DNA from: Clostridia bacterium
GTDB lineage: Bacteria; Bacillota; Clostridia; Christensenellales; DTU072
Length of the DNA stretch: 64,000 bases
Direction of reading: 5' to 3'
Assembly (NCBI GenBank): GCA_017504305.1
Contig: JAFVRJ010000026.1
Location: 62,001-126,000 of the forward strand
Shown here: piece by piece, positions 1 to 26,658 of the stretch
Position numbering within the stretch: the stretch's first letter is position 1
Layout of the letters: every line of letters starts with the position of its first letter
Notes under the pieces: model-generated
What the model saw: the letters and a program-made list of their open reading frames with translations, nothing else
What the model was told of the DNA's origin: nothing
The model's database searches: none
Translations under genes and position numbers: made by a program

Positions 1-3000
1 TTGATAACTTCGCTATTTACCCATGCTTCGATATAGGTAATACCATCCGAAGTGTCTTCTCTACCCTTTTCAAAACCGGTAACATAGTTGGTCCACGGAA
101 CAAATATGGGCTTGCCCATAACGTCGAGATATTGGGAGGTCGTATCGAATCCTTGAGCAGAACCAAGCAATGAATTAAATACGTTGCCAGTAACGCTACC
201 AAGGATGTTGCCACCAATACCGCCGATCGCGTTGGATATAGCATTAGAGATAGCGGAGGATGCTTGTCCCTTTGCGGTATCAACAAGCATGTTGAGCATC
301 TCGTTGCCTAATTGTTCTAAATATTGATATTGGGTTAGCGGTATGCCATCTTGAGTATAACCAGCATCCCAATCTTCTTGGTTAGAAGGATCTACACTTG
401 AGGCATCCGAATAGTCTGCACCAAGACGCAGTCTCAATCCCGTAACGTATTGAGATAAGTCTAATCCTGCTGACTTCTCGCTTTGCTTGTTCATCCATGG
501 CGGAACTTCTTTCGGAACAAGATAAATGGTACCAACGTCAACTACCGCCTCGTTTTCACTCATTATAATCTTATTTTTGATAGGCTTACCGCTTGAGTCA
601 ACGTTAAGCTTACCATCAACGTAGGTTAAACGTGAATCGTAATCGTAGTTTACGTAATCAGTACTTCTTACCTTCAAAATGTACTCGGTTCCGAGTGCAA
701 GTCCGTCGATGCTGATAACACCATTTTCTATATTGCTTAATGGGTTGCCATCGCCATCTACTGCATAGCTGCCCGTATAAACACCATCTACATAATTCAA
801 CTTTTTTGCATAGTTAAGTGCGTTATTACGTAAATAGTTGTTTTGGATTTCACTACCACCTTGGAACTTATTGCGTTCCATTCCATCAGCAGAGTCGGAC
901 AACCTGATAGTATGACCGGGTATTTCAAGCCATAACTCAAGGGAGCCAATGCTTGACGAGTCTTCCACTGCCTTTTTAGCCGCCAAAACGATTCTATAAA
1001 CGTTAGAGCTTGTTGCACCAGTTACGTGCTTTTGATTGAGGAATAATCTTACTTCAACAATAGCTCTTACGCCGTCTTGATAACTGATCGCATGATAGTA
1101 TCTACCCTTGATTTTTTCAGTTACAACAAATCCGAGCTTTCCATCAAGCTTATTGTCCTTAAATGCATTAAGTGCAGTTTGTGCCGTTGTTGCATCCTTA
1201 TAATCGTAAACGTGATATACAATATTATCACGAACAAAGCTTGCGTATAATCCTCCGTTTTCTGGATCTACCGGAACAAGATTATCGTCAAACGAGTTGT
1301 CAAACGACGTGCATATATCTTGCATTGCTTTTTGATTATACTTAAGCTCAGTCCTATTGCTTTGAGCATACGTAGCAAACACTGCCGTATCACTACCATT
1401 TAATATGGTTGCTGCGCCGTTATGGAATGCAACGACTATTCTATGTGCAACGATCTTTTGCGAACCATAGCTATATTTTTGGTTTACAAATGCTCTTGCC
1501 TCAACCATTGCGTTTGCTTTGGTTGCATAATGATATGTTGCGTTTACCTCGACTCTTGTGAAATCATTATTGCTATCAAGAGCCTTTGCAAATGCATTAA
1601 GTGCGGAAGTCGTATCAGCTTCCGAATTGTAATTATAGACACGATATTCAACGTTGTTTTCTACAAAGCTCGAGTAAAGGGTTCCATTTGCACTAAGATC
1701 TGCAACAAAGCTCTCCTTGAAGGCTACGTCAATAGACGTGGTCTTTGCTTCTTCAAATCGTGCCATATTGGTTGCATCGTGTGCGATATCGGTAAACACT
1801 TTAAGAGCAGACTCGCCCACAAGATATTCGTCTTTTAGCGTTACCAAAAGTCCGGTTATCTTGCCGGTTACAACGGTTTCGCCGCCTTCGCCACCGTCAC
1901 CGCCTTCGCCGCCTTCGCCACCTTCGCCGCCGTCACCACCGTCGCCGCCGCCACCGGTAGACTCGTTGATTAGCTTTTCGCAGAAAATTTCGTATCCACT
2001 AATTGCAGGCTTCGCGCCATCGAATTCTAAAGTTAGCGTTTCTCCATTTACAGTTTCGCCATTAGGTAGTTCTACTCTTATATCATACTGCCCAAAATAT
2101 AGTTTTTGAGTAATTTTAACTTTGGCTATACCTTCTGCATTGGTTAATACGCTGTCTCCACTATTAACGGGTGTATCTAAAGTGATCCATGCGCCGTTGT
2201 AGCTCATTTGTACTTTTGCGCCAACGATCGGAGTGGTTGTGCCGTTGCTTGCATCGAAAACATAAGCCTTAACCGTTAATTCAACGTTCTCCCAAGTCGT
2301 CTTATCCTTGCTGAGGGTATAGTTGAATGCGGTCGCAAAGTTACCTGCCGTACTTACAGGAATCCTCTCTATCGTGCCATCCTCTTTGTACTCAATGTTT
2401 TCTTCGTATCTGGTCGAAACTATGGTTAATTTGTAATGTTCGTCATTTTCGTTTTCTCTTGGCCACTCGTTAAGGAACCTACCGTCTTTATCAAACTCAT
2501 AGAATACAACGTCGTAAGTACCGGGTTCCATATTAACGAATAAATATTCGCCATTCCGATCGGTTACAGCTAAGTGTTGATTAATATTATGAGGATCTAG
2601 TTCGTCCGGATCATCAACCGTTATGTGAGACATCCACGTTCCGCCTTGATATAGAGCAACTGCAACGTTTACAGCAGGAACAAGAGTGTCGCCTTCCTCA
2701 AAAGTCACACGTCCAAAAGCCATAGAATGACCTTCTGTGGGCAATCCGCCCGTGGATCCGCCACCACTTATGCCACCTATTACGGTGTATAAATCGCCGC
2801 CTAACAGTCCGTTTAAAAAGAGCTTGGATAAGTTGGTCGCATTGGGATCGCCGTCTTCAAGTGCATTACCCCCGGCTATTCCACCTATCAATCCGCCTAA
2901 CGCTCCGCCACCGGAGTCAATGACGGCACCTATTCTAATCGGATTTCCCGTTGCGCCTATGAGGGAGCCGAGCCAGCCGGCAATAGCATCGGCGATAAAC

Positions 3001-6000
3001 TCATCAACTAAATCGTAAACGGTTGTACCGATAATAGAAACAATCGGTCCGCCTAAGTTGAGCAGCGTTCTAACCAACCACTTGGTTAGCTCGCTTATTA
3101 ATCCGGAAAGATCCAACGTGAAGATGTTGTTAAGGGACGCCCATACTTGATACTGCCTAATGAATGCAGTTATACCCATCGGCATCCAGTCGTCAGTGTC
3201 CGAAAGCGAATCTTTTACGTTAGATATCGCCGTTAATTGGTGAATATCGATTGACAGCTTATTGGTAACCGATTTGTTGAGTTGTAAACGTACTCTTCTA
3301 TATGCGTTGTCGAAGAAAATGGGGCTGTAAGTTGTAATAAGTGAACCTACGTCGATTTGGGTAATGCCAAGATCGATAACCCAGTTAAATGCATTTCCTT
3401 TAGAAACAAATGCGTTATCATACGGATCGACACCGTCAACGGTGTAGTCTTTTAGCATAGGTGAGTATACCGTAGGACCAGTCGAGTATCCGCCGGGGCC
3501 AGCAAAGCCGCCTAGATTATTCAAGAAGGAACCACCGAAATCGTTAAAATCCCATCTTGCGCCACCGGAACCATAGTCAAGGTTGCGTAAGAAGAAATAA
3601 TCATTACGTTTTTCGATGTAAATACTGAAGTCGGTAAACGACAAACTGTCTATCAAGCCCAAAACAAGCTTGCCTACTTGCAAGTTAGCGCCAATGCCAC
3701 CCTCGCCATTTACGCCAACGTTGACACCAATTACGCCGCCGTAAATGTTGTCTAACGCTGCGGTGTTATTGTTTTCGAATGCTTGATAGTTCTTTGCGGC
3801 TTTGCCTGCAGTTACAACTAAACCACCTTCGGGAATACCAAGGTTGAGATAGTTACCCTTTCTGTCAAGCTTAACGCGTAAGCCAAGCTTAATGCCACCG
3901 TGTAAGCTTAAAGCAATTCTAATGTCGGGAAGTTGCGGAAGCTCTACGCCTTCGCCTAATGAATCACCTAATAATGCACCAACTGCAAGGTTAAGTATCT
4001 CCATGTTGGGGTTGAGAATTAACTCATCGTTCGACAAGAGAACCTTGAGGAGCGGTGCATCCGTTGCGGTTATTAAGCCGATAGAGGCGTTTTGCGGAGC
4101 TTCTTGTTCAAGAGCTGCAGTCGACATATTGTTGAGCGTAGTTCCTTCGTAGGAAGCGTTTTGCGGAGCGTTGCTCTCTTCTCCTGACGAAGTCAAGCTG
4201 AACAACAAGTCGTTTATCAAATCGCCAGCGTTCAAGCCGGTATCGTATAAGTAGTCGCCAATTTGGCTTCCGCCAAGTTGTACGCCGGTAATCATCGGCA
4301 ATAAGAAGTCGTTAAACAATCCGATAACGTCGATACCGTTAAGCGATGCTTGGAAGAGTCCAAGTTCTTGTAAGTTAGCGTAAACGGTATTGGATTTACC
4401 TAAATAGTAAACACCGATGATTTCTTCACTATCGAGTTGGATGCTTATTACAAGCGTTGTATTGGTTATATCAAGTATGTCGATATAAGCCGTAACGATA
4501 AGATTGAGCGGTAACGACGTATCTTGAACGTCGATATTGATGGTATCCGCATCAAGACCGGTAACCTTTTGGAGCAAGTTCTCTAATGCGATAAGTTGCG
4601 GTGATTTTTCGGTGTCTTTGGTGCGCAATCTAATCTCTAAGTTGAGGTTGAGAGCCAATTGACCGAATTCGTTAAGGCTTTCGTATCTAATCTTATCTTC
4701 TTGTTCTGCTTCGCCTTCGATGTATTCTCTGGGATCGATTTTCGATTGGACGTCGGTGCCGAAGTTAGCATATTCACCTTGGAAGTCTAAGCCAAGGCGG
4801 AATGCTTTTTCGTACGGAGTATCGTCGGTAAGACGGATTAACAAGCCGTAAAGACCTTCACTGGGATCAAATCCGATTTGGAGGTTGCGGAACAAGGGGA
4901 TGCTAATAGCTCCGCCAAAGAGTTCGGTAAGCTTATCGTTCTGTCCGATACCTTCGAGGAGCGATCCGAGTAATGCGCCGGTTATTGCAAGAGAAGTCTT
5001 GTCATAGCCGATTGCAAAGAGGAGGAGTTTTTCAACCATCGTGTAATCGGAAATCTCAACTTCGTTCAAGTCGTCGGATAGGTTAGAGCTTGCATTGCGC
5101 GGTGCAGATGCATTTGCTACTTCTGTTCCTTCGCTTCCTTCAGTACCTTCGGTACCTGCGTTATCTTCCTTTTCTCCAAAGAGGTCAAGGGAGCTCAAGA
5201 GACCCTTAAGCATCGTACCTAATTGAATCTTTTCAATCTTAAGAGACGGTAAACCGAGTCCGCTTAAATCAAGGTAGATGGTGCTGGATTCATTTTGAAC
5301 TTCTTCACCTTTATCGTTAATAATCATCTCGTATCCACCCACGTAAGTGAGGAGGAGCATAGTGGTATCGTTGTACTTGATTTCAAGTTGTAATCTTACC
5401 GGAGTGATATCACTGAAGTCGATGAATATACGTAAGTAGATACCAAACATAATGTTGATATCGTCAACAGGTTGGAAAGCAAGTTTGAGTGCATTGATAA
5501 TATTGCCGATAGCCGGGTTATCCTTGAATACACCGCCGAGGAGGCTGAGGATTTCGCTCATATCGAAGATTCCACCAACGGTGTCGTCAACTCTGATTGC
5601 GATACCTGCTTCTAAATCTAACTTGTACTCATTGAGCGGTTTGAAGTCTTCAGCAAAATAGTCTGCTACATTAAATTGTTCAGCTTCCCTTTCTTTGATT
5701 TCTTGCTCGGTGGCATCTGCGGGGAGTGCGTTGCCATCTTTATCATAGTAAACGCCGTCGAGTTTTCCGTTGATGGGCGTTGCCTTGAAGATATTGGTCT
5801 TGCCTACGCCGATATCGAGGTTGTGTATCGAAAGAGATACGTTTACCATACTCTTGGTGCTCGATACTGCCATAAGTACTCTGCCAACGTTTGCAACGCC
5901 GGTTTGCTCTACGAGCACTTTAAGGGATACCGTTAATTGACTATGTGCGTGCGTTAAGTTATGCGTTTTAATTCCGCCCGATTGAACCATTGACCAAGTG

Positions 6001-9000
6001 AAGCCCTTCTTCTCGAGAAGCTTGCGTACGCCTTCAATAAACGCATCAGGGTTACCGCCGTAATTGTTCATGTCGTACAAGAAGTAGTAAACGTGACGAA
6101 TACCTAACTTGTCGAACGTTTCTTTTTCGCTACTTGAATCAGAGTTCTTTGCAACTACGAGTCTTTGTTCGTAAGCCGCCTCTGAAGCCATTGCGTATTC
6201 AACGTCGCCGATAGTAATAACGTTTTCAACCAAGAAGTCGTCAAGGTACTCTGCGCGGATTGCGTTTAATGCCTTCTCTTCGTTAGTCGTAGACATAACC
6301 TTTGCGCCTAAATCGCTATACTTAACGTTGTTAAGGTTAATGACAGGCATTGCGTTACTTATCATCATCGCGACTATAACTTTATTCTCCGATACCTTAA
6401 CGGTAATCGTAGTTTCGTCAATTGCGCTCAAGAAGCTTACGATGGGGCTGGAGGGAGCCGAAGTGATATCGAACGACGCGTTGTCAAATATATTTACAAT
6501 CGTGTCGCGTACTGCGTTAGCTGCTTGTAATTGCGCGCTCGGCAAATCGAATAGTTTCTTCGGATCGTAAACGAGATAGTATACGTCTTGCTCAACACCA
6601 GTAGGAATTATGCCAGCAGAAACCGAGTCGTATGCGGTACCGGTAAACGCTTCTTGTGCAACAAGTGCTACGGTGGTGCCGTCGAACGTTACGTTTTGAC
6701 CTCTCAAAGCTACTGCAACGGGGCTTACTGCACCTAACGTTTGCTCTACACCGCTTTCAATTGCGATGGTAGCTTCAATGTCTTCAAGATTGAACTTACT
6801 AATATCAACGGGTTGTTGGTCGTCCAAACCGACATTGATGGAAAGCTCGTTATTGTAGTTATCAAGCTCGAGGCTTAATCCGCCGATGTTGCTGAACTCC
6901 CAATGGGTTTCAACCAAAAGCTCGAACAGCGTTTGGAAAACGGACTTTGCAAGACCGATACCGATAGCGCCCTTCGAAATTTGGAGGTTTCCTATCATCC
7001 TAATTATTCTCTTGATAAGGACGTGTTGCGGATCTTCGGGCTCTTCTATCTCGGTGCCTTCCCCTTCTGCGTTAGATACATCTTCACCTTCGGTTCCTTC
7101 ACCTTCGGTGGAGCCTCCCTCTTCGGGTTTTACTTCCTCTTCACCATTGAGTCCTAATAAACCAAGGAGAAGGTCTAACACTGTCTGTGTAAAAGTCTGA
7201 TCTTCGCCGGTGCCCGCATCGATCGCTCCATCTAATCCGCCCGTTAGGTCAGAGGTCAAGCCGTTAAGCAATTCGCCAAGACCTTCGAAAACGGCTTCCA
7301 TATTCATGCCAATAAACTTGTTGAAGACTTCTGCATCAAGCTCGATGTTAACGCCACCAATACTTAAAAGGAGTTTGAAGTCGCCCATATCGAAGGGAAC
7401 CTTTTGCGTGGGGTCTTCTTTAATTACGCTATCGGGAACCTGTTCAATTTGGTTTAGGCTACCATATACGAAAAGTGCGAAGTGCTCTTCTTTTACGTCG
7501 TTAATTACGATAGCCTCGATTTCGCGCTTGATTAAGAGCTCGCGTTGTGCTTCGCTGAGGTCTTTATACTCATCGCTTGCATATTTGTCTCTGATTCTAT
7601 ACTCTTCAGCTTGACGCTCTGCGGCGATTTCCTTCTCGTCTTTAAGTGTTACGAGTTGGATGATAGCATCGAGTGCAAGTTGATCCAATGAATTGAGTTT
7701 AACGTCAGCTTTAATACGCAAGGTTGCTTCGCCCTTGATTGCATCAAGGAATTGTAGATAGAACGCCGCTTGTTTAGAGCCATCCGGAATTTGCTCATTT
7801 TTAAAGAGTTGGCTCCAATCGAGGATGTACTCTCTTACGTCAGCGCCAGCCGAAATATCCAAACCAAGATGTACGCGCCACTCGATAATATCAACGTCGT
7901 AGCAGCTCTCGTAGAACTCAACCATTTCTTCGCTCTTCATCGACTCGTAATAAGAATTATAGTTGCCTCTACCTAAAACGAGCGTGGAGTCGTGCAATAA
8001 GGATAACGTGAAGGAATATCCTGCGGAATCCCACTCTTCTCTGCCTTCGCCCTCAATGCCGTTATCGTCGGTGTCGGAATCTTTCTTGAGGTTGAGTTCT
8101 ATGCTGAAGCCACCGGTTTCTTTATCAAAATAGAGACCAAGTGCCATTTGATCGAGAATATCTTTACCAATCTTTACAAGCGTTGCTTTGTTAAAGAGGT
8201 TTTCCTTATTCTCAGGATCGATATACTCATCCTCAGTAAAGTTGTCGACTTGAAGGAATTTGACCAAGCCGTGTGCAACGCCAGTTAAAACGGAAGACGT
8301 TAGCATCAACGCAAAGCCTTGCGAGTTGAGGTAGATAAGCGGTCTTAAGAGATCCTCGATAAATCCGCTGTTCTCCTTATACATATCCTCTACCGGCGGG
8401 GTAACAATAGCGCTGTCTTTGCCCTCTTGCGCCTCTGCCGGAGCATTTACGGGAGCAGATTGATCGTCGCCACCAAGAATTACATCTTCATCAACGTCGA
8501 ATACGCCAACTGCAGTCAACAACCCGTGAACGAGCTCGCCAACGGAGAGAGTCTCAAGTTTTACGTTGAGTTGCGTATCGAATAACTCTACGCTTCCGTA
8601 GATAACGTCGTCTACGATGTAGAGTTGGATTAATTTTTGGTTATATAACGGCTCGTTTTTGAGGTTGTCATAAACGGTATATTGGATGATAATCTCCGCC
8701 GTTATGGCTTTATGTCTTTCTTCCTTATTAAGGAGGTAGCCAAGGTTGAACGCGAGATTAAGGTTAATCTCACCGCGTAAGGTTTCGTCACCACCGGAGA
8801 GGATCAATACGGGGTTGAACGAGTATTCAGTTAAGTCAATAGGCTTAATGCCCGCGATGGTCAGTATCGTATTGATAAGATCTGCCAAACGAACTTCGCC
8901 GTCTTGGAAGTCGATTTGGAAGCTTAGGTTGGTGCCAATCTCTAATGCAAGTTGGTCATAGTCGGTGTAGTCGGCTCTTTCAACTTCGTCGATAATCGGC

Positions 9001-12000: not shown

Positions 12001-15000
12001 TCGTGGTTACGATCGCGTAAAATTACTGCAAAGTTAGTATCGTAAACGACTCCATCATCGATTATTTGCGTTAAGTTGATATTGCCGATTACTTCAAGCG
12101 TGAAGTGAGTGGAAACTCTTCTCAAGAGTTGGATAATAGGAGCAAGACCTAAATTCTTAATGGTATCGATGGCTTCGCCTTCAGCAGGAATTAGGTCGAA
12201 TACACCTTCAAGAGTTTGATCGAGGTTGAACTTAACGTCGTCGTCGCCTTCGATATCAAATTCGATTTCCAAGTTTACGTAAATTTGTTGTAGGTTGTCT
12301 GCAGGGGCAAAACCTTCCTCTATAAAGCCCGCGGGCTCAAGAGAAACTCTTTCGGATTGAGAGTTTGCAAGGTCAATCTTTAATCCGTCAATGCCGAGTC
12401 CTACCGTATATGCCCCAAGATTGAGACCCAAACCAAGCAAATTGGATTCCTCATCTTCCCAAATATCTTTAATCATGGGGAGTTTGGACATGATGCCAAT
12501 TTGTAAATTAATGGCGTCTTCTTTAGGATCAGACAACATTGATTTAACGATTTGCGGTAAATTGAGCGTTAATTTTTCACCCTCTTTGAAAGGATTATCG
12601 AGTTCAAGCTTTAAGCCACCAAGGATTGCATAAACAACGCCACCAACAACTTCAAGAACAAGGCCGTAACCATTGCCAAGAATAAATCTTACGTAAGGTA
12701 TCAAATCCTCATCGTCAAGCTCTGCGTTGTTAAGATCGTTTGCGGGAGCGTTTTGCGGATTTACAACGTCACCTTCAACAGCTCCGCCACCTTCTTCTTC
12801 AAGACCACCAAGCTCTTCAAGAAGGGCTTTAAGTTCTTCTTCGGGTAATGCGTTTAATAGCTTGAGCAGTTGATACAATGCGATATCAACTCTAACTCTC
12901 TGTATTCCTAATAGACGTGCGTCAATATATGCAGTACCGTCAACGTAATACAACGTGATATATTCCATCTCGTTACGTACTTCAGTCGAGCCGTCTTCTT
13001 TATAATAGGTACGCGCAACTTCAGTGCCTACGCGAAGGAGTAGTTCTGCATTGGCAAATAAGTTGACTATCGGACGACCTGCAACGACCGCCAAAATATC
13101 GTGCATCGATACGGTGATGCCAAGGTCAAATCTCAACTCTTTGTTGCCATAACCCAAGTTCTCGATCAAAGCATCAATATCGATTTCGGTAAAGAAAGCT
13201 TGTAGTAGAGGCTTTAGATTGATTGGGGGTACGGTACCGTTGCCTGCACCAGAGGTGTCTTGTGCGTCAAATCTTGCTTCGCCACCCAAATGGATGGTGA
13301 TGTGGTGATTTTCGGAATCTTCGGGATTTACCCAGTAGTAGTGGTTGCCTTCGTCAAGCAAGCCGCCGGTCAAGTTGCCGTAGCCGTCGTCTTTACCTAC
13401 ATAGTAGGTATCATCGGGTTCAACGCTTACTTCAATAGTAGCTATTTCAAGTTGCAACTTGAGAAGATCTTTAAGGCTTACGTTAACAAGCAAGAAGGCA
13501 TCACGATAGCCGGATTCTTCGTACTTATCCTTAATTTTGCCTGCGCCAAGTTGTACGAGCAATTCGGGATCGTGGAATTCAAAGAATCTCTTTATATCTA
13601 TCGATCCGTATTCGTAAGGATTGATAGTTTCTCCGTTGCTCAACTTAAGCAATCCTTCGGTCAAATAAATGTAGTTGGGATCTTCTTTATCTTCATATTG
13701 TGCATCAAGCTCTGCTTTGCGGAGAGAAATTAAACCCTTGCGGAGATTTTGATATTGTTCGTCGGTGTAAGAGCCGTCGTTGGCCTTAATCTTTGCATAT
13801 AACTCTTCAAATGCGGTTACGGCATCTACAAGTGCTTTATATGCAACGTCCGAGAAGTTCCCGTCTAATAAGGATTGTTTATAAGAAGCAAGATAGTTTG
13901 CGGTGATGGTATCGTAGTTACCAAACGTCGCGTTACCTGCTGCATATGCTTCGTTAAGAGATGCAACGTAGGTTGCCCATAACTCTTTAATGTGATTTTC
14001 GGTCGCAACACCGTTAGCATCGGTTTCGCTATTGAATAAACCGTCGCCACGCATTATAACTACCTTTTCAAGGTAGCTTGCTGCTAAACCGTGGAGTGCA
14101 TAGTAATACTCTTGCTCGGAGTATTTACCGCTATTCTTATAGGTCGTAATCTTGGTTTCGTCAATGGCTACTTCAAACTTTGAATCGGTTGAGAGCAACG
14201 AATCTACCAATCCGTAAATAGCCGCTGCAGGAGCAACGATAGATACGGGAGCCGCGTTCGGTACGCCGAACTCTTCAGGATGTGCGGTAATTGCGAGAAC
14301 GATGCTTGCGCCGGTAAGAATAGAGTGCGGTACTTTGCCCTCTTCATTACGCGGTAATACCAAGCCGTTGTTAATAGAGTTCATCGCAACGGGGTTGTAG
14401 CTTTCTTCTTTGCCGGTCATTTCGGTGGCAAAGCGTTCCATGTATTTTGCAAATCCGTTGAAGTTGTTTACACGGATAACGTCTTGGATCTTAAGCGCGT
14501 CACCAAATAGTTTGGTTAAGTCCGCAAAGATATTAAGGTCGTATTCACCAGTTTCCTCGTTTAATACTCCCATAAGGCTTACCCACGCGATATCACGCTT
14601 ATCCTCCTCCTCGGGAGAGCTTGAGAAGGATACCGAAGCCTTAAGGTTCATGATGTTGCTGATGTCGAGAATTACTTCTACGTCGTAATAAAGTTCTCCA
14701 CCGAAGGTTGCCTTACCATCAACTACGTTACCGAGCGCCTCGAGGAGTAATCCAAAGTTAAAGAATGCGTCAAAGTCGAGGTTTGCTCCAATGTGTTGTT
14801 CATAGTAACCCCTTAAATCTTCATCCGACATACCCTTGAATTGTTCGTCGCCATATAGAGATGTTTCGCGTATCCATTTGAGCATATCTTCCTTTGCACT
14901 TTCATTAAGCCACTCTTGTAGATACTTTACAATATGGGTTAGGTCGGTAATACCAACGCCGGTTCCTTCGCCGTCAGGGCCCTCCGTTTCGGGAGCATTG

Positions 15001-18000
15001 ATTTCAAACGCGCCAACGCCACCGAGCTTAACGCCTATGGTGGTTAATTCTTCAACGAGGTCGTACTTGCCCTTTTCTTCGTCCGAAAGAGTAATATCTG
15101 TATCTACCAATATTGCAAGTTTACCAATAGATGCGCCTAAAGTAATAAAGTTTTGATCGTTGGGTTCTTCGGTGTTTTCAGTATCTTCACCGTCTACGCC
15201 TACGTCACGAAGTTGTAATGCAAGGTAAATTTCAAGAGGACTTAAGTTTACGCCAACTTCTACGTCGAGATCGAGGCTGTCAAGATATGCGCTGAGATCC
15301 ACACCAAGTACGCTCAATACGCCGATAAGAACAGATTTGGTAACGTTTACGGTTAAACCGTAATCGGCAAGAGCAAGGTTAATATAGTACTTAACCATAT
15401 CGACTTCAACAGGATTGCCTTGATCGTTTTGACTACCTGCTTGTCCGGTGGGAGCTGCTGTGTTAATGAGTCCTGCAATAAGCTCGTTCGCATCGGGAAT
15501 ATGTACGTACTGGAGCTCTAATATGAAGGTATTGATATGTGCATAGATGTCGCCTTCAACATAATAGATTTCCATTACGGGCTTGGTAGCTCTGATGCCC
15601 TTTGCTTCATCTTCCCAATAATCTTCGGACGTTATATCAGAAGTTGCATAAGTGCTTAAGGAAAGTTTTAATGCGGTTTCTTGGATTTTTGCAAAATCAA
15701 ATCCGCCGTTGATGATACCTACGATTTCTTGGAGATTTACACTTGCGTTTATATCCAAGAACAAAGCTTCGTCAACAAGGCCTAAGAAGGCGATAAGTGC
15801 TTCAAGCTTAATGTCTCCTAACAATCCACTCAATGCGGGTGTAAGGTTTACCGTGTTATTGTCGGTTCCTTCAACTACTTCAGAGTTAATGGATAGTCCA
15901 ATTCCAAGCTCAAGATAAATGTTGGTCGGGAGGCCACTGTCGGTAAGGAAGAAGTCTTCACCTTCGGGGAGCTCAATCAATAAGTCGGAGTTGTTGAGGT
16001 CTTCGCCGTCAACCGCGATAAATAGTCTCGAAATACCTAAGTTAAGGTTGAATACTTCAACGCCGGTAGCTATGCTTAAGAAAGCTCCTTCTTCGCCAAC
16101 GCCAAGCTCTAATGAAGTGTCTTGGATTGCAACAGGTAGATCGCTACCTACAAGCATGCCAATAAGACCTGCGATTGCATCTTTTGTAAGATTTACGGCA
16201 AGTCTATCGGGATGTAAGAGAACTTGTAATGCTATCGCTTCAGGATTTGATGCATCTGCAAATTCAGCTACGTTATTGAGATGTAAGAGGTTTGCGGGCT
16301 CTTCGTCTTTATCTGCTTCTTTCGAGCCGGTAAGTTCGCCGATATCGGTAATAAGCTCTGCTACGTTATTGATACCGATGTTGGGCATACCGAAGAAGGA
16401 TAAATCGAGGTATGCGTTGCCATCTAATAGATAAACACCTAAAATTACACCGTCTTGACCGGCAACTTTTCTATCGTATATCTTTATAGCAAGTTCAGAT
16501 TTACTTAAAATGGTGTTGATAATATCTCCACCTTCGGAACCGTCAAGCTTAATAACGCCACCAAGGTGTACCTTCGCAATGATTTCAAAGCCAAGTTCGA
16601 TATCAAGTCTCGAAGTGTCTACCATCAAGCCCAAACCGCTGATTAATCCACTTAAAAGTTGGTTGAGATATGCGTTGGTGTATTCTTCAATATTTTTATA
16701 AACAGGGTTTCCATCTTTATCAACGCTTTGGATCTTGTTTCCATCGCTATCAAGAATAAACTCACCGTTTTCGTCAACTTCATAAACCGGCTCTTCTTGA
16801 ACGGTAAGATCAAGATTACCCTTTAGGTGCAAACCAACGGTAAGCGTATCGAGGAAGTCTTGTATTTCGACAAAGGACAATGCATAGTCGTCTTCGTCTA
16901 TATCTTGATACATATTTATCTTACCGGCGCGGAGCGTCAAATCCTTAATAATATCAATCTCCAAAGAAATTGCTTCAATTGAATTGTCGCCGTCGTCAAG
17001 AAGCGCCAAATAGATGCGTAAATATCCGTTTTCGGGGAGTTTATCACCAAAATCAAAATTTATCGCCTTAATCTCAACAAATGCGTTTAGGTTGGGCATG
17101 GTGATTTGTTCGGGATTACCAAATTCATCTACCGGAGCAAGGAGTAAGGTAAGTAAAGAGCTAAGGAAGTTTGCGGCAACGTATACGCCAAGCGTTCCCT
17201 TAACTTGATCTAATCTTACTTCGGAAATAGCCATTCCGATAATTTGCATTACATCGAGGCCACCGCCTTGGGTTCCTTCCGTAGTACCGTCGCCTTCGGT
17301 AGTTCCGTCTCCTGCGCCCTCTTCATTGAGAAGGCTAAGTGCATTCATAACGACTTGCTCGCTACCGCAAAGCAATACGCCGGAAGCAAGGTATTCATTT
17401 ACTGCAAGGTATTGATAAAGCGCAAGCTTTGCTTGATTTAAGAAATCGGGGCTTGAAGTATCGATGGTTAAAGCGTTCTTTACGTCATCGTTAACCAATA
17501 TACCCGAAATAATCGATGCTAAATCAAGACCGGCGAGAGTATCGCGCAAGCCAAGTCCGGTGTACTTAAGTCTCGGCAATTTTCCTAACGAGTTAAGTCC
17601 AATGTTCTTCAACGGCTCAAGATCGATATACAAAACGTCTTGCTTTAATCCACTGCCATCGTCGCCAAAATAGAGTACGCGTATGAACGGAGCGCCCGTA
17701 TCTGCGTTATATATGGTTATTTTTACTTCTAATTTGGTCATATCGATAATGTCGATATTACCTTCTATTTTGTATGCAATAGTGGTCTTACCATCGTAAG
17801 TTACGCCTACGGAAAGGAGTAAATTATCAACAAAGGTACCGATAAGGGAGCTTAAATCGAGACCGGTCGGGGTTGTAGCACCAGCGCCAATGGATACGTC
17901 GCCTTGTAACAAAATATTGTAGTTGCGGTTTGCATACATAAAGCCTTCTTCTTTGTTACCAAAGATAGAAAGGTTTACGTAAGAATTACGCTCTTCGACG

Positions 18001-20150
18001 GTATCAACCATTTCATAGTTGTTCCAGTCGGGCTCGCGCATATATGTAAGCGAATCAAGCGTTAAACCAAGGCGTACGCTATCGGTAATGTCGACCTTAA
18101 GAGCTAACGTGTTGAGCGGATCTTTTTGGTTGAAAGAAAGGTTAACGCCAAGGCCTTCACCAAGACTGCCGTTAAGCGCTAAACCAAACTTGGAAAGTAA
18201 AGCAGTGATTTCTTCTGCATTAAGATCTAATGCTATATTCCAGTCGTTAGGTATTTTATTTCCATTAGCATCAAGAATGGGGTTTCCTTCTATATCGCTA
18301 ACGTACTCTTTTGTTCCAGGAAGATCAAGTGCTTTGATAATCAAACCAATTGCCCCCATTACATCCATAGATGCGCCGGCTGCAGAACCTTCCTCAGAAC
18401 CATCTTCCGCATTGAATAATCCGTTGAGATTGAAGGGAAGTTCTTGCGGCTCTGTGACTGGAGGAACGTAATTGGGGTCAAGGTAAGGCTTTATGGAGGA
18501 AAGTACTCCATCAAGGAGCGAGTTCAAGCTAAATCCTTGCAACACAAGGTTGGGGAGTAGCGTGCCGGAATGAACTTTTAAGGTTTCAAAGTTCAAATAT
18601 AGATTGTTTTCAGATAAGAACAACCTCATTAACGGCGAATCGTTAAAGTTAATGGTTATTTCCGCCTGAGTCTTCATTGAATCGAAGAAATCAAGGGCAA
18701 TTTTTACGTCGAGACCTAACTCATAGCGCGCAGCATAAGGAAGATTTATGGGCATATCGCCAAGAGCACCGAGATTCAAATCAAACGCGGTGCCAAGAAT
18801 CTTGTTGATGGTGAGGTTGCCGTTATCGTCGTTTTCAACGTACAAGGAAAGGCCTAATCCGAGGTTGGCAAGACCACCTTCTTTGTAGGTTTCTTTACGT
18901 CCTTGTTCATTAAGACCAAGAGAACCGAAGTTGATAACGGTTTTTTCGTTAGATCCATACATCTCCAACGGAGAAAGGCTAATATTAACCGAAAAGTCTT
19001 CTACGAGTTCGCCTTCCGCCATATCTTCAGGATAAACGTCAACGTATTTCTGACGAGTTGCTTGAATGTCGTTAGGCGTATCTATCGTGATTTGGAAACC
19101 GCTAAGGACGTATCTTTCTTCTGTTGCGATAAAGTCGCCATCAGAAACTGTTACGGGCTTTTTCTCCGTATTAAAAACGAGTCTTGCGTCCATTAAAGGC
19201 CATTTTTTCTTTGTTAAGCCTTTCAAAGTAAATCCAAGGAATTGATTCAAAATAGGATCTACGTCAAATGGAAGAAGTTGATCAAGGTTGCCAAGAGAAA
19301 TCGGAGGTACGCCATTAAGGAACAAAGATAAATCCAATCCGGTAGGACTTATAAGGGCGTCCCAAATACCATTTCCTTCCGAATCGTTCAAATAAAGGGA
19401 AATAGCCAAGTCTTGGTTAAGGTACTCGCCTGTAACAGGATCTTGGTTATAAAAAACTTGGTAGCCTGCTTGATTGTAGAGCAACATATCACCGGCTAAA
19501 TTACCTACTAAAACGCCAAGGTCCATATTAAGAACGCTGATACCTGTTGTACCGCCACTGAACAAGTTAGCAATCAAAGGTAGAACTTCAATCCCCGAGC
19601 CATTTAATAACTCATAAAGCATCCCACCGACTTGAGTAAAGTTAAGTTCCGCCATGTAGTACTTTTGAGTGCCCACTACAAAGTACGTATAGCCAGTTGC
19701 ATAATAAATACACAAAACGGGATAGTTGTTGCTGTTTCGAACTTGAAAATAAAGCTCGCTCTTGTTATTATCTTTTAAATGAATGTTCGCTTTGAAGATA
19801 ATCGAGAAATTGGAGCTCTTTTCGTATTTTTCAGTGCTATCCAGCATAAAGTGGTCAAAATTGTAGTCGAATTCAACGTCAATGACAAACCACTCCGGAT
19901 CATCCGCTTTCTTTTCGCCATAATAGAGCTTATGGTTAGAAACCGATTCTTGGATCAACGATTTAACGTCTTTGGTATCGATTTCCTCGGTGAGGCGGAC
20001 TTCTTCCTCGATGTCGGAATCTTCGCCGAGGACGATGTCGTTATGCGGGTCGTTTTCGTCAGGCTCTCTCGGTGAACATGCAAAGAGAGCGCCAATTAAA
20101 GCGACTACGATGAGAATCAACACAAGTTTGTGGGCTAGACCGTGTTTCAT
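1..20150 (-). CDS. Giant repeat-containing surface lipoprotein, 3' end beyond window
   Basis: The ATG at 20148-20150 opens a frame with no stop down to the left edge: 6716 complete codons, over 700 kDa, and still unfinished. AAGGAG lies 6 nt upstream of the start. Residues 1-25 are a lipoprotein signal (hydrophobic core, then LFAC with Cys25), so the mature N-terminus should be lipid-anchored outside the membrane. An acidic stretch follows, then about 12-13 degenerate modules of 300-400 residues. Each has alternating polar/hydrophobic beta strands, a core like YVDLSxLGLxKLKI, a leucine-rich helix and an acidic or Asn-Ala-Pro linker. Two unlike domains interrupt the modules, and the tail has a carboxypeptidase-regulatory-like domain, a Gly-rich hinge and a duplicated domain of about 145 residues. 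Base and codon use are even throughout, arguing against decay. I recognise no named family; a structural, adhesive or lipid-handling surface role is inference. Confidence 0.9.
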   Translation of the reverse strand, partial: MKHGLAHKLVLILIVVALIGALFACSPREPDENDPHNDIVLGEDSDIEEEVRLTEEIDTKDVKSLIQESVSNHKLYYGEKKADDPEWFVIDVEFDYNFDHFMLDSTEKYEKSSNFSIIFKANIHLKDNNKSELYFQVRNSNNYPVLCIYYATGYTYFVVGTQKYYMAELNFTQVGGMLYELLNGSGIEVLPLIANLFSGGTTGISVLNMDLGVLVGNLAGDMLLYNQAGYQVFYNQDPVTGEYLNQDLAISLYLNDSEGNGIWDALISPTGLDLSLFLNGVPPISLGNLDQLLPFDVDPILNQFLGFTLKGLTKKKWPLMDARLVFNTEKKPVTVSDGDFIATEERYVLSGFQITIDTPNDIQATRQKYVDVYPEDMAEGELVEDFSVNISLSPLEMYGSNEKTVINFGSLGLNEQGRKETYKEGGLANLGLGLSLYVENDDNGNLTINKILGTAFDLNLGALGDMPINLPYAARYELGLDVKIALDFFDSMKTQAEITINFNDSPLMRLFLSENNLYLNFETLKVHSGTLLPNLVLQGFSLNSLLDGVLSSIKPYLDPNYVPPVTEPQELPFNLNGLFNAEDGSEEGSAAGASMDVMGAIGLIIKALDLPGTKEYVSDIEGNPILDANGNKIPNDWNIALDLNAEEITALLSKFGLALNGSLGEGLGVNLSFNQKDPLNTLALKVDITDSVRLGLTLDSLTYMREPDWNNYEMVDTVEERNSYVNLSIFGNKEEGFMYANRNYNILLQGDVSIGAGATTPTGLDLSSLIGTFVDNLLLSVGVTYDGKTTIAYKIEGNIDIIDMTKLEVKITIYNADTGAPFIRVLYFGDDGSGLKQDVLYIDLEPLKNIGLNSLGKLPRLKYTGLGLRDTLAGLDLASIISGILVNDDVKNALTIDTSSPDFLNQAKLALYQYLAVNEYLASGVLLCGSEQVVMNALSLLNEEGAGDGTTEGDGTTEGTQGGGLDVMQIIGMAISEVRLDQVKGTLGVYVAANFLSSLLTLLLAPVDEFGNPEQITMPNLNAFVEIKAINFDFGDKLPENGYLRIYLALLDDGDNSIEAISLEIDIIKDLTLRAGKINMYQDIDEDDYALSFVEIQDFLDTLTVGLHLKGNLDLTVQEEPVYEVDENGEFILDSDGNKIQSVDKDGNPVYKNIEEYTNAYLNQLLSGLISGLGLMVDTSRLDIELGFEIIAKVHLGGVIKLDGSEGGDIINTILSKSELAIKIYDRKVAGQDGVILGVYLLDGNAYLDLSFFGMPNIGINNVAELITDIGELTGSKEADKDEEPANLLHLNNVAEFADASNPEAIALQVLLHPDRLAVNLTKDAIAGLIGMLVGSDLPVAIQDTSLELGVGEEGAFLSIATGVEVFNLNLGISRLFIAVDGEDLNNSDLLIELPEGEDFFLTDSGLPTNIYLELGIGLSINSEVVEGTDNNTVNLTPALSGLLGDIKLEALIAFLGLVDEALFLDINASVNLQEIVGIINGGFDFAKIQETALKLSLSTYATSDITSEDYWEDEAKGIRATKPVMEIYYVEGDIYAHINTFILELQYVHIPDANELIAGLINTAAPTGQAGSQNDQGNPVEVDMVKYYINLALADYGLTVNVTKSVLIGVLSVLGVDLSAYLDSLDLDVEVGVNLSPLEIYLALQLRDVGVDGEDTENTEEPNDQNFITLGASIGKLAILVDTDITLSDEEKGKYDLVEELTTIGVKLGGVGAFEINAPETEGPDGEGTGVGITDLTHIVKYLQEWLNESAKEDMLKWIRETSLYGDEQFKGMSDEDLRGYYEQHIGANLDFDAFFNFGLLLEALGNVVDGKATFGGELYYDVEVILDISNIMNLKASVSFSSSPEEEDKRDIAWVSLMGVLNEETGEYDLNIFADLTKLFGDALKIQDVIRVNNFNGFAKYMERFATEMTGKEESYNPVAMNSINNGLVLPRNEEGKVPHSILTGASIVLAITAHPEEFGVPNAAPVSIVAPAAAIYGLVDSLLSTDSKFEVAIDETKITTYKNSGKYSEQEYYYALHGLAASYLEKVVIMRGDGLFNSETDANGVATENHIKELWATYVASLNEAYAAGNATFGNYDTITANYLASYKQSLLDGNFSDVAYKALVDAVTAFEELYAKIKANDGSYTDEQYQNLRKGLISLRKAELDAQYEDKEDPNYIYLTEGLLKLSNGETINPYEYGSIDIKRFFEFHDPELLVQLGAGKIKDKYEESGYRDAFLLVNVSLKDLLKLQLEIATIEVSVEPDDTYYVGKDDGYGNLTGGLLDEGNHYYWVNPEDSENHHITIHLGGEARFDAQDTSGAGNGTVPPINLKPLLQAFFTEIDIDALIENLGYGNKELRFDLGITVSMHDILAVVAGRPIVNLFANAELLLRVGTEVARTYYKEDGSTEVRNEMEYITLYYVDGTAYIDARLLGIQRVRVDIALYQLLKLLNALPEEELKALLEELGGLEEEGGGAVEGDVVNPQNAPANDLNNAELDDEDLIPYVRFILGNGYGLVLEVVGGVVYAILGGLKLELDNPFKEGEKLTLNLPQIVKSMLSDPKEDAINLQIGIMSKLPMIKDIWEDEESNLLGLGLNLGAYTVGLGIDGLKIDLANSQSERVSLEPAGFIEEGFAPADNLQQIYVNLEIEFDIEGDDDVKFNLDQTLEGVFDLIPAEGEAIDTIKNLGLAPIIQLLRRVSTHFTLEVIGNINLTQIIDDGVVYDTNFAVILRDRNHEAYYNGELKYKEVLSIYYVDRAIYINAECFNLQAVKIENAWDFVVDLIASFGIGGDSSGEGAEGDGTTEPQNMGIGGYLCPEGFNPNAILNEAPDEGNLIAALINLRIQPEGLILNIAASAVLGILPFILGEKFAFAPLLEPVGELFVDVTLLGDDELLGLGLKFKGYEFIGDQRVENTSTEPGASKYKFADGGEISLNLRIRNNWTIAFRHHWIEDVYYIDNYGKEDETIRVESTYVEHAIEAPRYAYLDGEVNEEDIEIPEEKEYVNFDQTNPVVGLELYLYFDISSEGISGDPLPSYFDTTNYTGYDLYKEPLPSLLGSLLNGLIEGTLALLLEINGEQSMSVVLEILANVPLTNILGVQAQITVSRTEEYAKGKLLQVNLHDDIIFLDASFIGGPKASMPDVLKSLFNGGSIDLGPLDSLINGSTESEGATGAPSNAQNAPRAGASGTQTPVYIDLSKELEYISSYGLAIFANKMAVDSILGIFDMTELKIFNDVLAQISLAPHDYSFQLGVDVVADAIWNNNVSDVLHLHIGLGDLGINFEPYSSDRLVLPQVSDYIDFTESTNIELEASFELRLNVNDGAINLESLINTLLDEDGLIVGLLPEDNKDAAAEAFFGLEGALANVLPQIIALGYMGQKNEDGTISEGESLGDTIRLDIAASFNLENFLNPDPESSGIIENILLNLQLKLDLYSVKAPHKFNVVITYYDNDIYLDLSTLGLGKTKIWNVISMLLRLMNPDDPTIAENFDERHYQGRPQHAPEAISMFDGLVDPSIDYDQAFVEEYPTWATVLGMNNAEATESMAGIIKILISEGDGLLLNVTFEMINMLLSSLLGLDLSPFVDDVINPNVGVGIVPNYNPEGEDDFTASYEVNINLDSGTAQKDGWVYIVAAEGTAKEDRDPSKEGYRWLKWIRNDNGEKTAKIYNCADPEEFDDDKNLVTLDEYLEDGKYVVVNQEHLDNAGAGINLGIGILGHELKIGLEREDKVHTPSGEVSTLKPIIDEVERADYTDYDQLALEIGTNLSFQIDFQDGEVRLADLINTILTIAGIKPIDLTEYSFNPVLILSGGDETLRGEINLNLAFNLGYLLNKEERHKAITAEIIIQYTVYDNLKNEPLYNQKLIQLYIVDDVIYGSVELFDTQLNVKLETLSVGELVHGLLTAVGVFDVDEDVILGGDDQSAPVNAPAEAQEGKDSAIVTPPVEDMYKENSGFIEDLLRPLIYLNSQGFALMLTSSVLTGVAHGLVKFLQVDNFTEDEYIDPENKENLFNKATLVKIGKDILDQMALGLYFDKETGGFSIELNLKKDSDTDDNGIEGEGREEWDSAGYSFTLSLLHDSTLVLGRGNYNSYYESMKSEEMVEFYESCYDVDIIEWRVHLGLDISAGADVREYILDWSQLFKNEQIPDGSKQAAFYLQFLDAIKGEATLRIKADVKLNSLDQLALDAIIQLVTLKDEKEIAAERQAEEYRIRDKYASDEYKDLSEAQRELLIKREIEAIVINDVKEEHFALFVYGSLNQIEQVPDSVIKEDPTQKVPFDMGDFKLLLSIGGVNIELDAEVFNKFIGMNMEAVFEGLGELLNGLTSDLTGGLDGAIDAGTGEDQTFTQTVLDLLLGLLGLNGEEEVKPEEGGSTEGEGTEGEDVSNAEGEGTEIEEPEDPQHVLIKRIIRMIGNLQISKGAIGIGLAKSVFQTLFELLVETHWEFSNIGGLSLELDNYNNELSINVGLDDQQPVDISKFNLEDIEATIAIESGVEQTLGAVSPVAVALRGQNVTFDGTTVALVAQEAFTGTAYDSVSAGIIPTGVEQDVYYLVYDPKKLFDLPSAQLQAANAVRDTIVNIFDNASFDITSAPSSPIVSFLSAIDETTITVKVSENKVIVAMMISNAMPVINLNNVKYSDLGAKVMSTTNEEKALNAIRAEYLDDFLVENVITIGDVEYAMASEAAYEQRLVVAKNSDSSSEKETFDKLGIRHVYYFLYDMNNYGGNPDAFIEGVRKLLEKKGFTWSMVQSGGIKTHNLTHAHSQLTVSLKVLVEQTGVANVGRVLMAVSSTKSMVNVSLSIHNLDIGVGKTNIFKATPINGKLDGVYYDKDGNALPADATEQEIKEREAEQFNVADYFAEDFKPLNEYKLDLEAGIAIRVDDTVGGIFDMSEILSLLGGVFKDNPAIGNIINALKLAFQPVDDINIMFGIYLRIFIDFSDITPVRLQLEIKYNDTTMLLLTYVGGYEMIINDKGEEVQNESSTIYLDLSGLGLPSLKIEKIQLGTMLKGLLSSLDLFGEKEDNAGTEGTEGSEGTEVANASAPRNASSNLSDDLNEVEISDYTMVEKLLLFAIGYDKTSLAITGALLGSLLEGIGQNDKLTELFGGAISIPLFRNLQIGFDPSEGLYGLLIRLTDDTPYEKAFRLGLDFQGEYANFGTDVQSKIDPREYIEGEAEQEDKIRYESLNEFGQLALNLNLEIRLRTKDTEKSPQLIALENLLQKVTGLDADTINIDVQDTSLPLNLIVTAYIDILDITNTTLVISIQLDSEEIIGVYYLGKSNTVYANLQELGLFQASLNGIDVIGLFNDFLLPMITGVQLGGSQIGDYLYDTGLNAGDLINDLLFSLTSSGEESNAPQNASYEGTTLNNMSTAALEQEAPQNASIGLITATDAPLLKVLLSNDELILNPNMEILNLAVGALLGDSLGEGVELPQLPDIRIALSLHGGIKLGLRVKLDRKGNYLNLGIPEGGLVVTAGKAAKNYQAFENNNTAALDNIYGGVIGVNVGVNGEGGIGANLQVGKLVLGLIDSLSFTDFSIYIEKRNDYFFLRNLDYGSGGARWDFNDFGGSFLNNLGGFAGPGGYSTGPTVYSPMLKDYTVDGVDPYDNAFVSKGNAFNWVIDLGITQIDVGSLITTYSPIFFDNAYRRVRLQLNKSVTNKLSIDIHQLTAISNVKDSLSDTDDWMPMGITAFIRQYQVWASLNNIFTLDLSGLISELTKWLVRTLLNLGGPIVSIIGTTVYDLVDEFIADAIAGWLGSLIGATGNPIRIGAVIDSGGGALGGLIGGIAGGNALEDGDPNATNLSKLFLNGLLGGDLYTVIGGISGGGSTGGLPTEGHSMAFGRVTFEEGDTLVPAVNVAVALYQGGTWMSHITVDDPDELDPHNINQHLAVTDRNGEYLFVNMEPGTYDVVFYEFDKDGRFLNEWPRENENDEHYKLTIVSTRYEENIEYKEDGTIERIPVSTAGNFATAFNYTLSKDKTTWENVELTVKAYVFDASNGTTTPIVGAKVQMSYNGAWITLDTPVNSGDSVLTNAEGIAKVKITQKLYFGQYDIRVELPNGETVNGETLTLEFDGAKPAISGYEIFCEKLINESTGGGGDGGDGGEGGEGGEGGDGGEGGETVVTGKITGLLVTLKDEYLVGESALKVFTDIAHDATNMARFEEAKTTSIDVAFKESFVADLSANGTLYSSFVENNVEYRVYNYNSEADTTSALNAFAKALDSNNDFTRVEVNATYHYATKANAMVEARAFVNQKYSYGSQKIVAHRIVVAFHNGAATILNGSDTAVFATYAQSNRTELKYNQKAMQDICTSFDNSFDDNLVPVDPENGGLYASFVRDNIVYHVYDYKDATTAQTALNAFKDNKLDGKLGFVVTEKIKGRYYHAISYQDGVRAIVEVRLFLNQKHVTGATSSNVYRIVLAAKKAVEDSSSIGSLELWLEIPGHTIRLSDSADGMERNKFQGGSEIQNNYLRNNALNYAKKLNYVDGVYTGSYAVDGDGNPLSNIENGVISIDGLALGTEYILKVRSTDYVNYDYDSRLTYVDGKLNVDSSGKPIKNKIIMSENEAVVDVGTIYLVPKEVPPWMNKQSEKSAGLDLSQYVTGLRLRLGADYSDASSVDPSNQEDWDAGYTQDGIPLTQYQYLEQLGNEMLNMLVDTAKGQASSAISNAISNAIGGIGGNILGSVTGNVFNSLLGSAQGFDTTSQYLDVMGKPIFVPWTNYVTGFEKGREDTSDGITYIEAWVNSEVI
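960..1866 (-). repeat. Duplicated domain of about 145 residues in the giant lipoprotein
   Basis: Two consecutive segments (about 1407-1866 and 960-1406) share the order: F..S/N..F, GxLYxSFVxxNxxYxVYxY, a helix with TxxALNAF, RYYHA or TYHYA, EVRxFxNQK and a closing xYRIVxA strand. They are clearly homologous at protein level. Function unknown; the position after a flexible hinge suggests an exposed ligand-binding or processing domain. Confidence 0.7.
1878..1959 (-). repeat. Gly/Glu/Asp-rich hinge in the giant lipoprotein
   Basis: A run of GG followed by D or E repeats for about 27 residues between the Ig-like segment and the duplicated C-terminal domains. At DNA level it is a 9-nt-type microrepeat of ccgccttcg/ccaccgtcg units and may vary in length. 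It reads as a flexible acidic linker. Confidence 0.85.
2460..2735 (-). other. Carboxypeptidase-regulatory/Cna-B-like domain of the giant lipoprotein
   Basis: The segment starting GRVTFEEGD contains VTDRNGEYLFVNMEPGTYDV, the typical 'TDxNGxYxFxxLxPGxY' signature of carboxypeptidase-regulatory-like and Cna-B folds found in surface proteins. A second Ig-like segment with NAEGIAKVKI follows at about 1970-2460. Both suggest a stalk near the C-terminal part. Confidence 0.65.
5960..6730 (-). other. Mixed alpha/beta domain inserted in the giant lipoprotein
   Basis: Residues about 4470-4730 lack the module pattern. They include two segments that begin with YYLVYDP and YYFLYDM and run on into helices, so this could be an internal duplication of a small alpha/beta domain. 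It fills the second long gap between module cores (7450 to 5260). No family recognised. Confidence 0.4.
13660..14190 (-). other. Helical domain inserted in the giant lipoprotein
   Basis: About 175 residues (roughly 1985-2165) rich in Ala, Lys, Glu, Tyr and Leu replace the beta-rich pattern. They read as several helices with regularly spaced Tyr and Ala, resembling the three-helix spacer modules of Gram-positive surface proteins. This explains the 2.6-kb gap between module cores at 15530 and 12930. The resemblance is pattern recognition only. Confidence 0.5.
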
Positions 20151-20243
20151 GATGTACTCCTTGGGTGGGTTTGGTGGTGGGATTGTTGCGCTCGGGCGCT
20201 TATAAAAGAATAACGGGACCACCCAGGCCCTCGTTCTACCGAA

Positions 20244-20272
20244 ATTCTACGCTTATCGCCGAAAAAAGTCAA
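20244..20272 (-). promoter_or_regulatory. Sigma-A promoter of the giant lipoprotein gene
   Basis: TTGACT (20267-20272), a 17-nt spacer and TAGAAT (20244-20249) on the minus strand give a near-consensus promoter. The leader to the ATG is about 85 nt and ends with AAGGAG at 20157-20162. Confidence 0.75.
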
Positions 20273-20618: not shown

Positions 20619-21425
20619 TTAGATTAAAACGTCGTTAGCGAAGTCGTAAATCTTCTTAACGATAAACTCCTTGATATCAATGCTGTCGTCCTCGATTAAA
20701 GGGGTTAAATCCATGCCGTAAGTAACGAATTCGGCTACGTCTACGCCGTGAGAAGCAGAGAACGTCGCGTTACCTGCGCGCCTACCTAAAGCAGCGGTGC
20801 AATACTCTTTGCCACCTGCGATTTGGCTCTCATAAACGTCCAATACGTCGCGCATGAGCTTCTCATAGCCCGTGAGGTCGAAGAAAACCTTTTCGTCGTC
20901 GGAAAGCCAGTCTAAAGCCCTCCAAACCTCACATCCGTAAAGCTTCTTCGGACGAAGTTCTTTGGGAAGCGCTCTAACCGCCTTAACAGAGTTAACCGCA
21001 GTACCTACGTGGGTGGGGTGCTTGTCGGCAAGATTGTGGATGTACATGGTTTCCGGACGATACTCCTCGATTATCGCTTTAATGTCAAGCATTGGAGAAT
21101 CGTTCGAGCGGTCCTTTAGCTCTTTGGAGGTGTAGTTAAGCATAATGAGTTCGGAGTAGTCGCCTATCTCTGCAGCCTTGATTTGCTCAACCCTTCTAAC
21201 CTTCATCATATCTTCGTCGGTCATGTCGGCAAACTTGCCTGTACGAGGGCTTCCCGCGCCGTCGGCACACACAACAGCTATAACGCCATATTTGTCACTT
21301 TGGTATCCCTTAATGATTGCTTGGGGACACATAATCTCGATATCGTCTTGGTGAGCTGCAACAACCAACTCTGTAAAAATTTGCTTTTTGCCGTGCACTA
21401 TTTCGGCATTTTTATTAAGTTGCAT
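20619..21425 (-). CDS. PIG-L family deacetylase
   Basis: 268 residues. The zinc-binding signature AAHQDDIEI near residues 23-31 (family AHPDD) and the downstream HNLADKHPTH motif (HxxDxHxxH) identify the PIG-L/LmbE N-deacetylase fold. Family members remove acetyl groups from GlcNAc-type sugars or related amides; the substrate is not readable here. AAGGAG lies 7 nt before ATG. It is the last gene of a four-gene minus-strand operon, 19 nt after the ROK gene. The sugar-linked neighbours (ROK protein, mutarotase-like protein) support a carbohydrate role, which is inference. Gln replaces the usual Pro in the first motif, a tolerated variation. Confidence 0.85.
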   Translation of the reverse strand: MQLNKNAEIVHGKKQIFTELVVAAHQDDIEIMCPQAIIKGYQSDKYGVIAVVCADGAGSPRTGKFADMTDEDMMKVRRVEQIKAAEIGDYSELIMLNYTSKELKDRSNDSPMLDIKAIIEEYRPETMYIHNLADKHPTHVGTAVNSVKAVRALPKELRPKKLYGCEVWRALDWLSDDEKVFFDLTGYEKLMRDVLDVYESQIAGGKEYCTAALGRRAGNATFSASHGVDVAEFVTYGMDLTPLIEDDSIDIKEFIVKKIYDFANDVLI

Positions 21426-26588: not shown

Positions 26589-26658
26589 ACTCACTCCGCG
26601 GATAATAGAGTTTAATTTACGCGAGCTTACGCGAGCGCGCAAAGCGCATACACACTAA

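Follow-up and report, generated by a model that had tools for sequence, protein, structure and literature searches.

A 9,566-residue predicted surface lipoprotein and its module family in gut Clostridia

The locus analysed here raises the question of whether an exceptionally long open frame encodes a genuine protein and, if so, what that protein might do for the cell. The window is a stretch of 64,000 nucleotides corresponding to positions 62001-126000 of contig C26 of the source genome (G000, 1.80 Mb in 27 contigs). It was found that one minus-strand frame was stop-free from GTG 20222 (6,740 codons) or ATG 20150 (6,716 codons) to the left edge of the window, which the first-pass annotation had read as a giant single-ORF lipoprotein of at least 6716 residues. 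After the contig was extended 20 kb leftwards, the stop was located at C26:53450 (L001:11450), and the whole ORF was calculated to be 9,566 aa (28.7 kb, zero N). At 44% GC, chance would not plausibly leave 9,566 successive codons free of stops.

The giant frame and its modules

Inspection of the sequence at the proximal end (Table 1) showed a well-spaced AAGGAG motif and a promoter-like site, and an intrinsic-terminator-like hairpin was observed at 20594-20575, between the PIG-L gene and the giant gene. Judging from these elements, the giant gene probably forms a transcription unit by itself. The N-terminus of the giant, MKHGLAHKLVLILIVVALIGALFAC-S, contains the cleavage-site pattern LFAC followed by S. 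A signal peptide, a lipobox and an invariant Cys were present both in the giant and in the orthologues that were read, supporting its prediction as an Lgt/LspA-type lipoprotein, and we infer that it is expressed, exported by Sec and lipidated. The first-pass annotation had suggested looking to the left for a stop and an anchor; the stop was found, but no C-terminal anchor was visible. Because the giant contained neither an LPXTG-like motif nor a hydrophobic C-terminal segment, the predicted lipid on Cys25 is its only visible anchor.

Table 1. Features of the giant gene and its upstream neighbours in the window (residue numbers refer to the giant protein)
Feature	Window position	Strand	Evidence
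Giant lipoprotein CDS, residues 1-6716 of 9566	1..20150, continues left to C26:53450	-	frame and colinear orthologues
Module 14, residues 5197-5430	3861..4562	-	iterative profile, E=2.1e-19
Module 13, residues 4888-5081	4908..5489	-	iterative profile, E=1.6e-25
Module 12, residues 4130-4443, insert-interrupted	6822..7763	-	two partial matches, E=0.0088 and 1.7e-15
Module 11, residues 3781-3965	8256..8810	-	iterative profile, E=1.1e-22
Module 10, residues 3369-3574	9429..10046	-	iterative profile, E=1.1e-34
Module 9, residues 3048-3238	10437..11009	-	iterative profile, E=1.4e-34
Module 8, residues 2669-2881	11508..12146	-	iterative profile, E=1.2e-40
Module 7, residues 2323-2530	12561..13184	-	iterative profile, E=3.2e-35
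Module 6, residues 1815-1999	14154..14708	-	iterative profile, E=7.5e-12
Module 5, residues 1447-1654, profile seed	15189..15812	-	E=4.7e-40; AF2 model
Module 4, residues 1180-1366	16053..16613	-	iterative profile, E=1e-36
Module 3, residues 788-1008	17127..17789	-	iterative profile, E=2.6e-12
Module 2, residues 477-690	18081..18722	-	iterative profile, E=1.6e-21
Module 1, residues 113-188, partial match	19587..19814	-	iterative profile
Predicted lipoprotein signal peptide, residues 1-25, lipobox LFAC, Cys25	20076..20150	-	sequence; also in orthologues
Shine-Dalgarno AAGGAG, 7 nt 5' of ATG 20150	20157..20162	-	sequence
Promoter-like site TTGACT-17-TAGAAT	20244..20272	-	10/12 matches, consensus match only
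PIG-L family N-deacetylase, adjacent upstream gene beyond the terminator-like hairpin	20619..21425	-	PF02585 E=1.5e-17; synteny
ROK-family protein, conserved neighbourhood	21445..22770	-	PF00480 E=5.9e-8
Weak DUF4380/DUF6786 protein (below cut-off), conserved neighbour; similar at same place in G114, G109	22780..23622	-	
1004-aa protein, transglutaminase-like core, probable conserved neighbour	23628..26642	-	PF01841 E=2.1e-9

The repeats were located by profile self-comparison and an iterated profile. Fourteen degenerate copies of a ∼210-aa alpha/beta module were found over residues 113-5,430 at a spacing of ∼270-760 aa, and the same number was counted in G004 and G014. Between half-units lay acidic, low-complexity linkers in which E, G, T and (S/Q)NA motifs are frequent. 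An AlphaFold2 (AF2) model of one unit, made with 86 aligned units, had a mean pLDDT of 68 (72-93 over residues 21-130) and exhibited a predicted order of strand-helix-four strands-helix, then two strands-helix-three strands, which is not a solenoid. A longer piece spanning two modules gave the same order of elements at a pLDDT of 53.

Searches with the translated frame agreed with the first-pass annotation, which had recognised no family for the repeated body and had proposed a database comparison. No match above cut-off was obtained in Pfam-A, NCBIfam or PDB sequences for the body, the middle or the C-terminal half; no Pfam family was matched repeatedly by the 86 module units; and Foldseek of both AF2 models against the PDB and viral structures returned nothing at E<=0.001. 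As Pfam and NCBIfam hold no entry for the module, annotation by those libraries misses the family. A literature search, whose coverage leaves out most subscription journals, found no paper on it. Below the Pfam cut-offs, CarboxypepD_reg and Big_4 signals (Big_4 E=7e-4) were observed at residues ∼5,860 and ∼8,670, and the C-terminal half gave weak Ig-like signals. Region 7,001-7,420 was well conserved across genera and had no PDB match. Neither a carbohydrate-binding family nor a known adhesin domain could be recognised in the giant, which counts against the glycoprotein-capture reading given below.

The predicted unit has ∼11 strands and 3 helices, an element count which we take to be that of LolA-type carriers. 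The modules might accordingly be pictured as LolA/LppX-type half-barrels that would form an array passing lipids or other hydrophobic ligands outward, like bridge-like transfer proteins. LolA and RseB were indeed among the weak Foldseek matches, but their E values of 1.0 and 3.7 were at chance level. Moreover, hhalign against LolA (approximate sequence) and a DUF6612 protein gave probabilities of 0.04-0.13%, no lipid-carrier Pfam family recurred among the 86 modules, and the AF2 confidence was only 68 and 53. The likeness to LolA/LppX carriers is a similar element count in a low-confidence model; such an array is without statistical support and is considered improbable.

It was also observed that the linkers between half-modules (window 3861-13300) carry recurrent (S/Q)NA-P/S/E motifs, in orthologues too. 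The giant contains 12 [SQ]NA versus 3.8 expected after shuffling, and the motif is nearly missing from five other large proteins of the source genome (one in all). It is possibly a modification or cleavage site.

Orthologues, distribution and selection

Using residues 1-1000 as the query, the giant was found in 19/38 relatives, all in the source family (f1). Five complete frames in the source genus were 9,550, 9,630, 9,404, 9,649 and 9,482 aa, and those from other genera were 8,194, 8,472, 8,317 and 11,335 aa; MAFFT alignment showed that they were colinear from end to end. The longest member read, from G251 (L072-L074), had a lipobox and 13,588 aa in one open frame, and the G153 giant had at least 12,457 aa. 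Orthologues in the source family thus ranged over 8,194-13,588 aa, with a lipobox in each. One giant of such size was present per genome at the locus, with no run of consecutive giant genes.

At the distal end, left of the window, a 438-aa ORF in a different frame (L001:10311-11627, C26:52311-53627) was 26-48% identical to the conserved C-terminal part of the orthologues, to which it corresponds. Over its last 600 residues the giant aligned with orthologues as far as residue ∼9,505, and the 438-aa ORF carried the match to the very end; that is, a single frameshift lies near residue 9,506 in the G000 assembly and costs the giant its last ∼430 conserved residues in frame. A long homopolymer was absent at the junction, and the frameshift may be an assembly error or a true truncation. 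The giants of G017 and G018 were also broken into consecutive ORFs, of 1,846 and 6,732 aa (L039/L040) and of 1,391 and at least 2,190 aa (L043), respectively, indicating that frame breaks recur in these assemblies; the G017 split may be similar in kind to that of G000.

The first-pass annotation had named a chimeric assembly or frameshifts as observations that would speak against a giant protein, and this one frameshift, outside the window, was the point found in favour of a chimera or of a decaying gene with an accidentally open frame. Five complete orthologues of 9.4-9.6 kaa, from independent genomes of the genus and colinear throughout, exclude an assembly chimera. A chance ORF was ruled out by the same orthologues together with the codon comparison, and since the frame is under purifying selection (see below), decay is extremely improbable.

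In the order, the module profile (cut-off E<=1e-5) matched 75/297 genomes, distributed over families f1, f3, f6, f8, f14 and f17, and among the matches listed the module lay mostly within open frames of 6-13.6 kaa. The frames read in f3, f8 and f17 were lipoproteins of 8,080-10,277 aa with 13-22 modules at a permissive threshold; that of G037 had at least 7,855 aa, bounded by the stretch read. A single-sequence scan of contigs detected zero loci and an alignment-based scan nine. No match was obtained in the ∼370 genomes sampled from other orders of the class or in 397 others sampled from the rest of the phylum, the only matches in these samples being the source genome and one genome of the order, which fits the earlier view that such giants are rare in Bacillota. 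Many genomes of the order, including two checked genomes of the source family, likewise gave no module match. Sheep, goat and roe-deer gut MAGs were among the named relatives. Taken together, an order-wide family of giant surface lipoproteins in gut Clostridia is well supported. The profile built here makes the family countable, and single modules (∼210-360 residues) are small enough for expression and testing.

A second large lipoprotein of 3,834 aa was noticed in the source genome (L085:2592-14096, on contig C20). It contains one module copy at residues 341-541, and its N-terminus resembles that of the giant.

Giant genes that are single ORFs of extreme length occur in Omnitrophota and Planctomycetota, which the present gene resembles, by description alone, in ORF length; those are other phyla. 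Closer in kind are Giant1-5 of Apilactobacillus kunkeei, extracellular single-ORF proteins of 3,000-8,000 aa with predicted elongated shape, whose five genes follow one another and four of which carry a beta-solenoid at the N-terminus (PMC12863079). Both cases concern very large single-ORF surface proteins of small-genome Bacillota bacteria, but, as judged from the descriptions, the source genome differs in having one longer, predicted lipid-anchored giant with an alpha/beta module. A surface giant is a kind already known, whereas the module, the anchor and the order-wide conservation appear new.

By the Nei-Gojobori method, dN/dS values of 0.06 (G011 versus G002, 89% identical; 5,468 codons), 0.14 (G003 versus G008; 7,253 codons) and 0.16 (G001 versus G009; 7,813 codons) were obtained, which are approximate as dS was near or above 1. 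In each 1000-residue block the value was 0.04-0.24, and close species showed no hypervariable stretch. In the G011/G002 pair, PIG-L and ROK gave 0.04, compared with 0.06 for the giant. These results support strong and even purifying selection on the giant, near the level of the neighbouring enzymes as far as codon comparison can tell. The first-pass annotation had arrived at strong selection too, and in this it was right, although the support comes from codon comparison rather than from the open frame itself, on which it had argued. That ∼1.6% of a 1.8 Mb genome is spent on one protein nearly as constrained as neighbouring enzymes, and that the same module occurs in at least six families of the order, points to a major part of the cell surface in uncultured gut Clostridia.

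Adhesion or cell interaction is a frequent role of large repetitive bacterial surface proteins (PMC12863079), and the giant could be an adhesin or decoy that meets host cells or competitors at the gut surface, unrelated to any sugar genes. Its weak Ig-like/Big_4 and CarboxypepD_reg-like signals recall MSCRAMM-like Ig-fold adhesins, from which it differs in having a predicted lipid anchor instead of an LPXTG motif. The low block values without a hypervariable stretch and the constant module number in the genus, however, argue against such a role, which we regard as unlikely.

Gene neighbourhood and possible roles

The minus-strand order in the source genome was the transglutaminase-like 1,004-aa protein, the weak DUF4380/DUF6786 protein, ROK, PIG-L, the giant, the 438-aa tail and an M6 metalloprotease, followed by a 247-aa Ig-like protein and GH20. 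In G109, a lipoprotein sized like the 1004-aa protein was found at the corresponding place. The 2,085-aa M6 protein adjoining the giant (L001:3920-10177; TIGR03296 1.4e-36, above cut-off) carries RCC1 and Ig-like repeats and a weak dockerin-like C-terminus; it was kept in G003, G004, G011, G014 and G020 and in part in G017, and is predicted to be a large secreted partner kept in relatives. PIG-L was directly upstream of the giant on the same strand in eight f1 genomes (G000, G002, G004, G011, G013, G015, G020 and G109), and GH20 was ∼9 kb downstream in four (G000, G003, G004 and G011); genomes within one genus are non-independent in these counts. In f3, the sole PIG-L (nine genomes) and a GH20 (ten genomes) were just upstream on the contig and strand of the giant, as seen from the gene order read out except for G274 (position only). 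The order was GH20, a 306-aa protein, a 443-aa protein, PIG-L and giant in G114, and GH20, PIG-L and giant in G023, G144, G192 and G214. PIG-L, ROK and GH20 were beside the giant in two families, and the M6 protease in one of these. No signal peptide was found at the N-termini of PIG-L, ROK and GH20 in the orthologues read.

On this basis, we tentatively propose, at a probability of roughly one in three, that the giant is a lipid-anchored surface fibre which captures GlcNAc-rich glycoproteins, as a scaffold or receptor cooperating with the M6 protease and the sugar genes. The chain would be exported by Sec and project outward from the cytoplasmic membrane, in which its Cys25-linked lipid would anchor it, with the 14 tandem alpha/beta modules (residues ∼110-5,430), the middle region and an Ig-like C-terminal half without wall anchor in succession. 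Glycoproteins such as mucin would be held at the cell by the modules and the tip, and the captured protein would be cut by the secreted M6 metalloprotease; the sugar would then be used by other products of the locus that are presumably cytosolic, namely the GH20 hexosaminidase, the PIG-L deacetylase and the ROK protein. The colinear lipobox orthologues, the constant 14 modules, the low dN/dS and the PIG-L/GH20/M6 synteny are in favour of this function, which they support weakly. Selection so even is, on the other hand, unusual for an exposed adhesin, and the terminator-like hairpin and separate promoter-like site between PIG-L and the giant also speak against it. Neither PIG-L nor GH20 was matched in giant-bearing genomes of f8, f17 (except G289) and the f3 genus g43, and the giant can therefore exist without the sugar link; in addition, the neighbours differed in orthologues G001 and G007. 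The link between the giant and the sugar genes thus appears real but lineage-limited.

A role in building the envelope is nearly as likely as the glycoprotein-fibre reading, given the evenness of selection and the dispensability of the sugar genes. In that case the giant would serve as structure rather than bind a particular ligand, acting as a spacer or a sheath that is S-layer-like or spans the wall. Tethered at one end by the lipid, it would pass through the wall with its modules, and its Ig-like half would pack outside. This is consistent with one copy per genome at such size, a length that varies by only a few per cent inside the genus, strong and even constraint comparable to that on adjacent enzymes, the acidic composition (1468 D+E versus 680 K+R) and the persistence of the giant in families without the sugar genes. 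Nevertheless, the giant showed no recognisable wall-binding domain (SLH, LysM, sortase or other), and the genomes of the order and of the source family that lack a match imply that it is dispensable, unless they reflect assembly gaps. A further idea, possible but doubtful, is that an undescribed module confined to one order, at 13-22 copies on a lipid-anchored chain of 8-13.6 kaa, might form a continuous surface conduit or fibre, an envelope device without known counterpart.

Elsewhere in the window, ORFs at 43018-45591 (857 aa) and 52736-55945 (1,069 aa) gave no Pfam match, and a 754-aa leucine-rich-repeat protein (50320-52584) matched the EndoS LRR domain weakly. A 709-aa protein with seven treble-clef zinc fingers of the DUF4379 type and an end weakly resembling I-HmuI/NUMOD is encoded at 47529-49658, in an AT-rich stretch (GC 0.34); its gene looks mobile or selfish.
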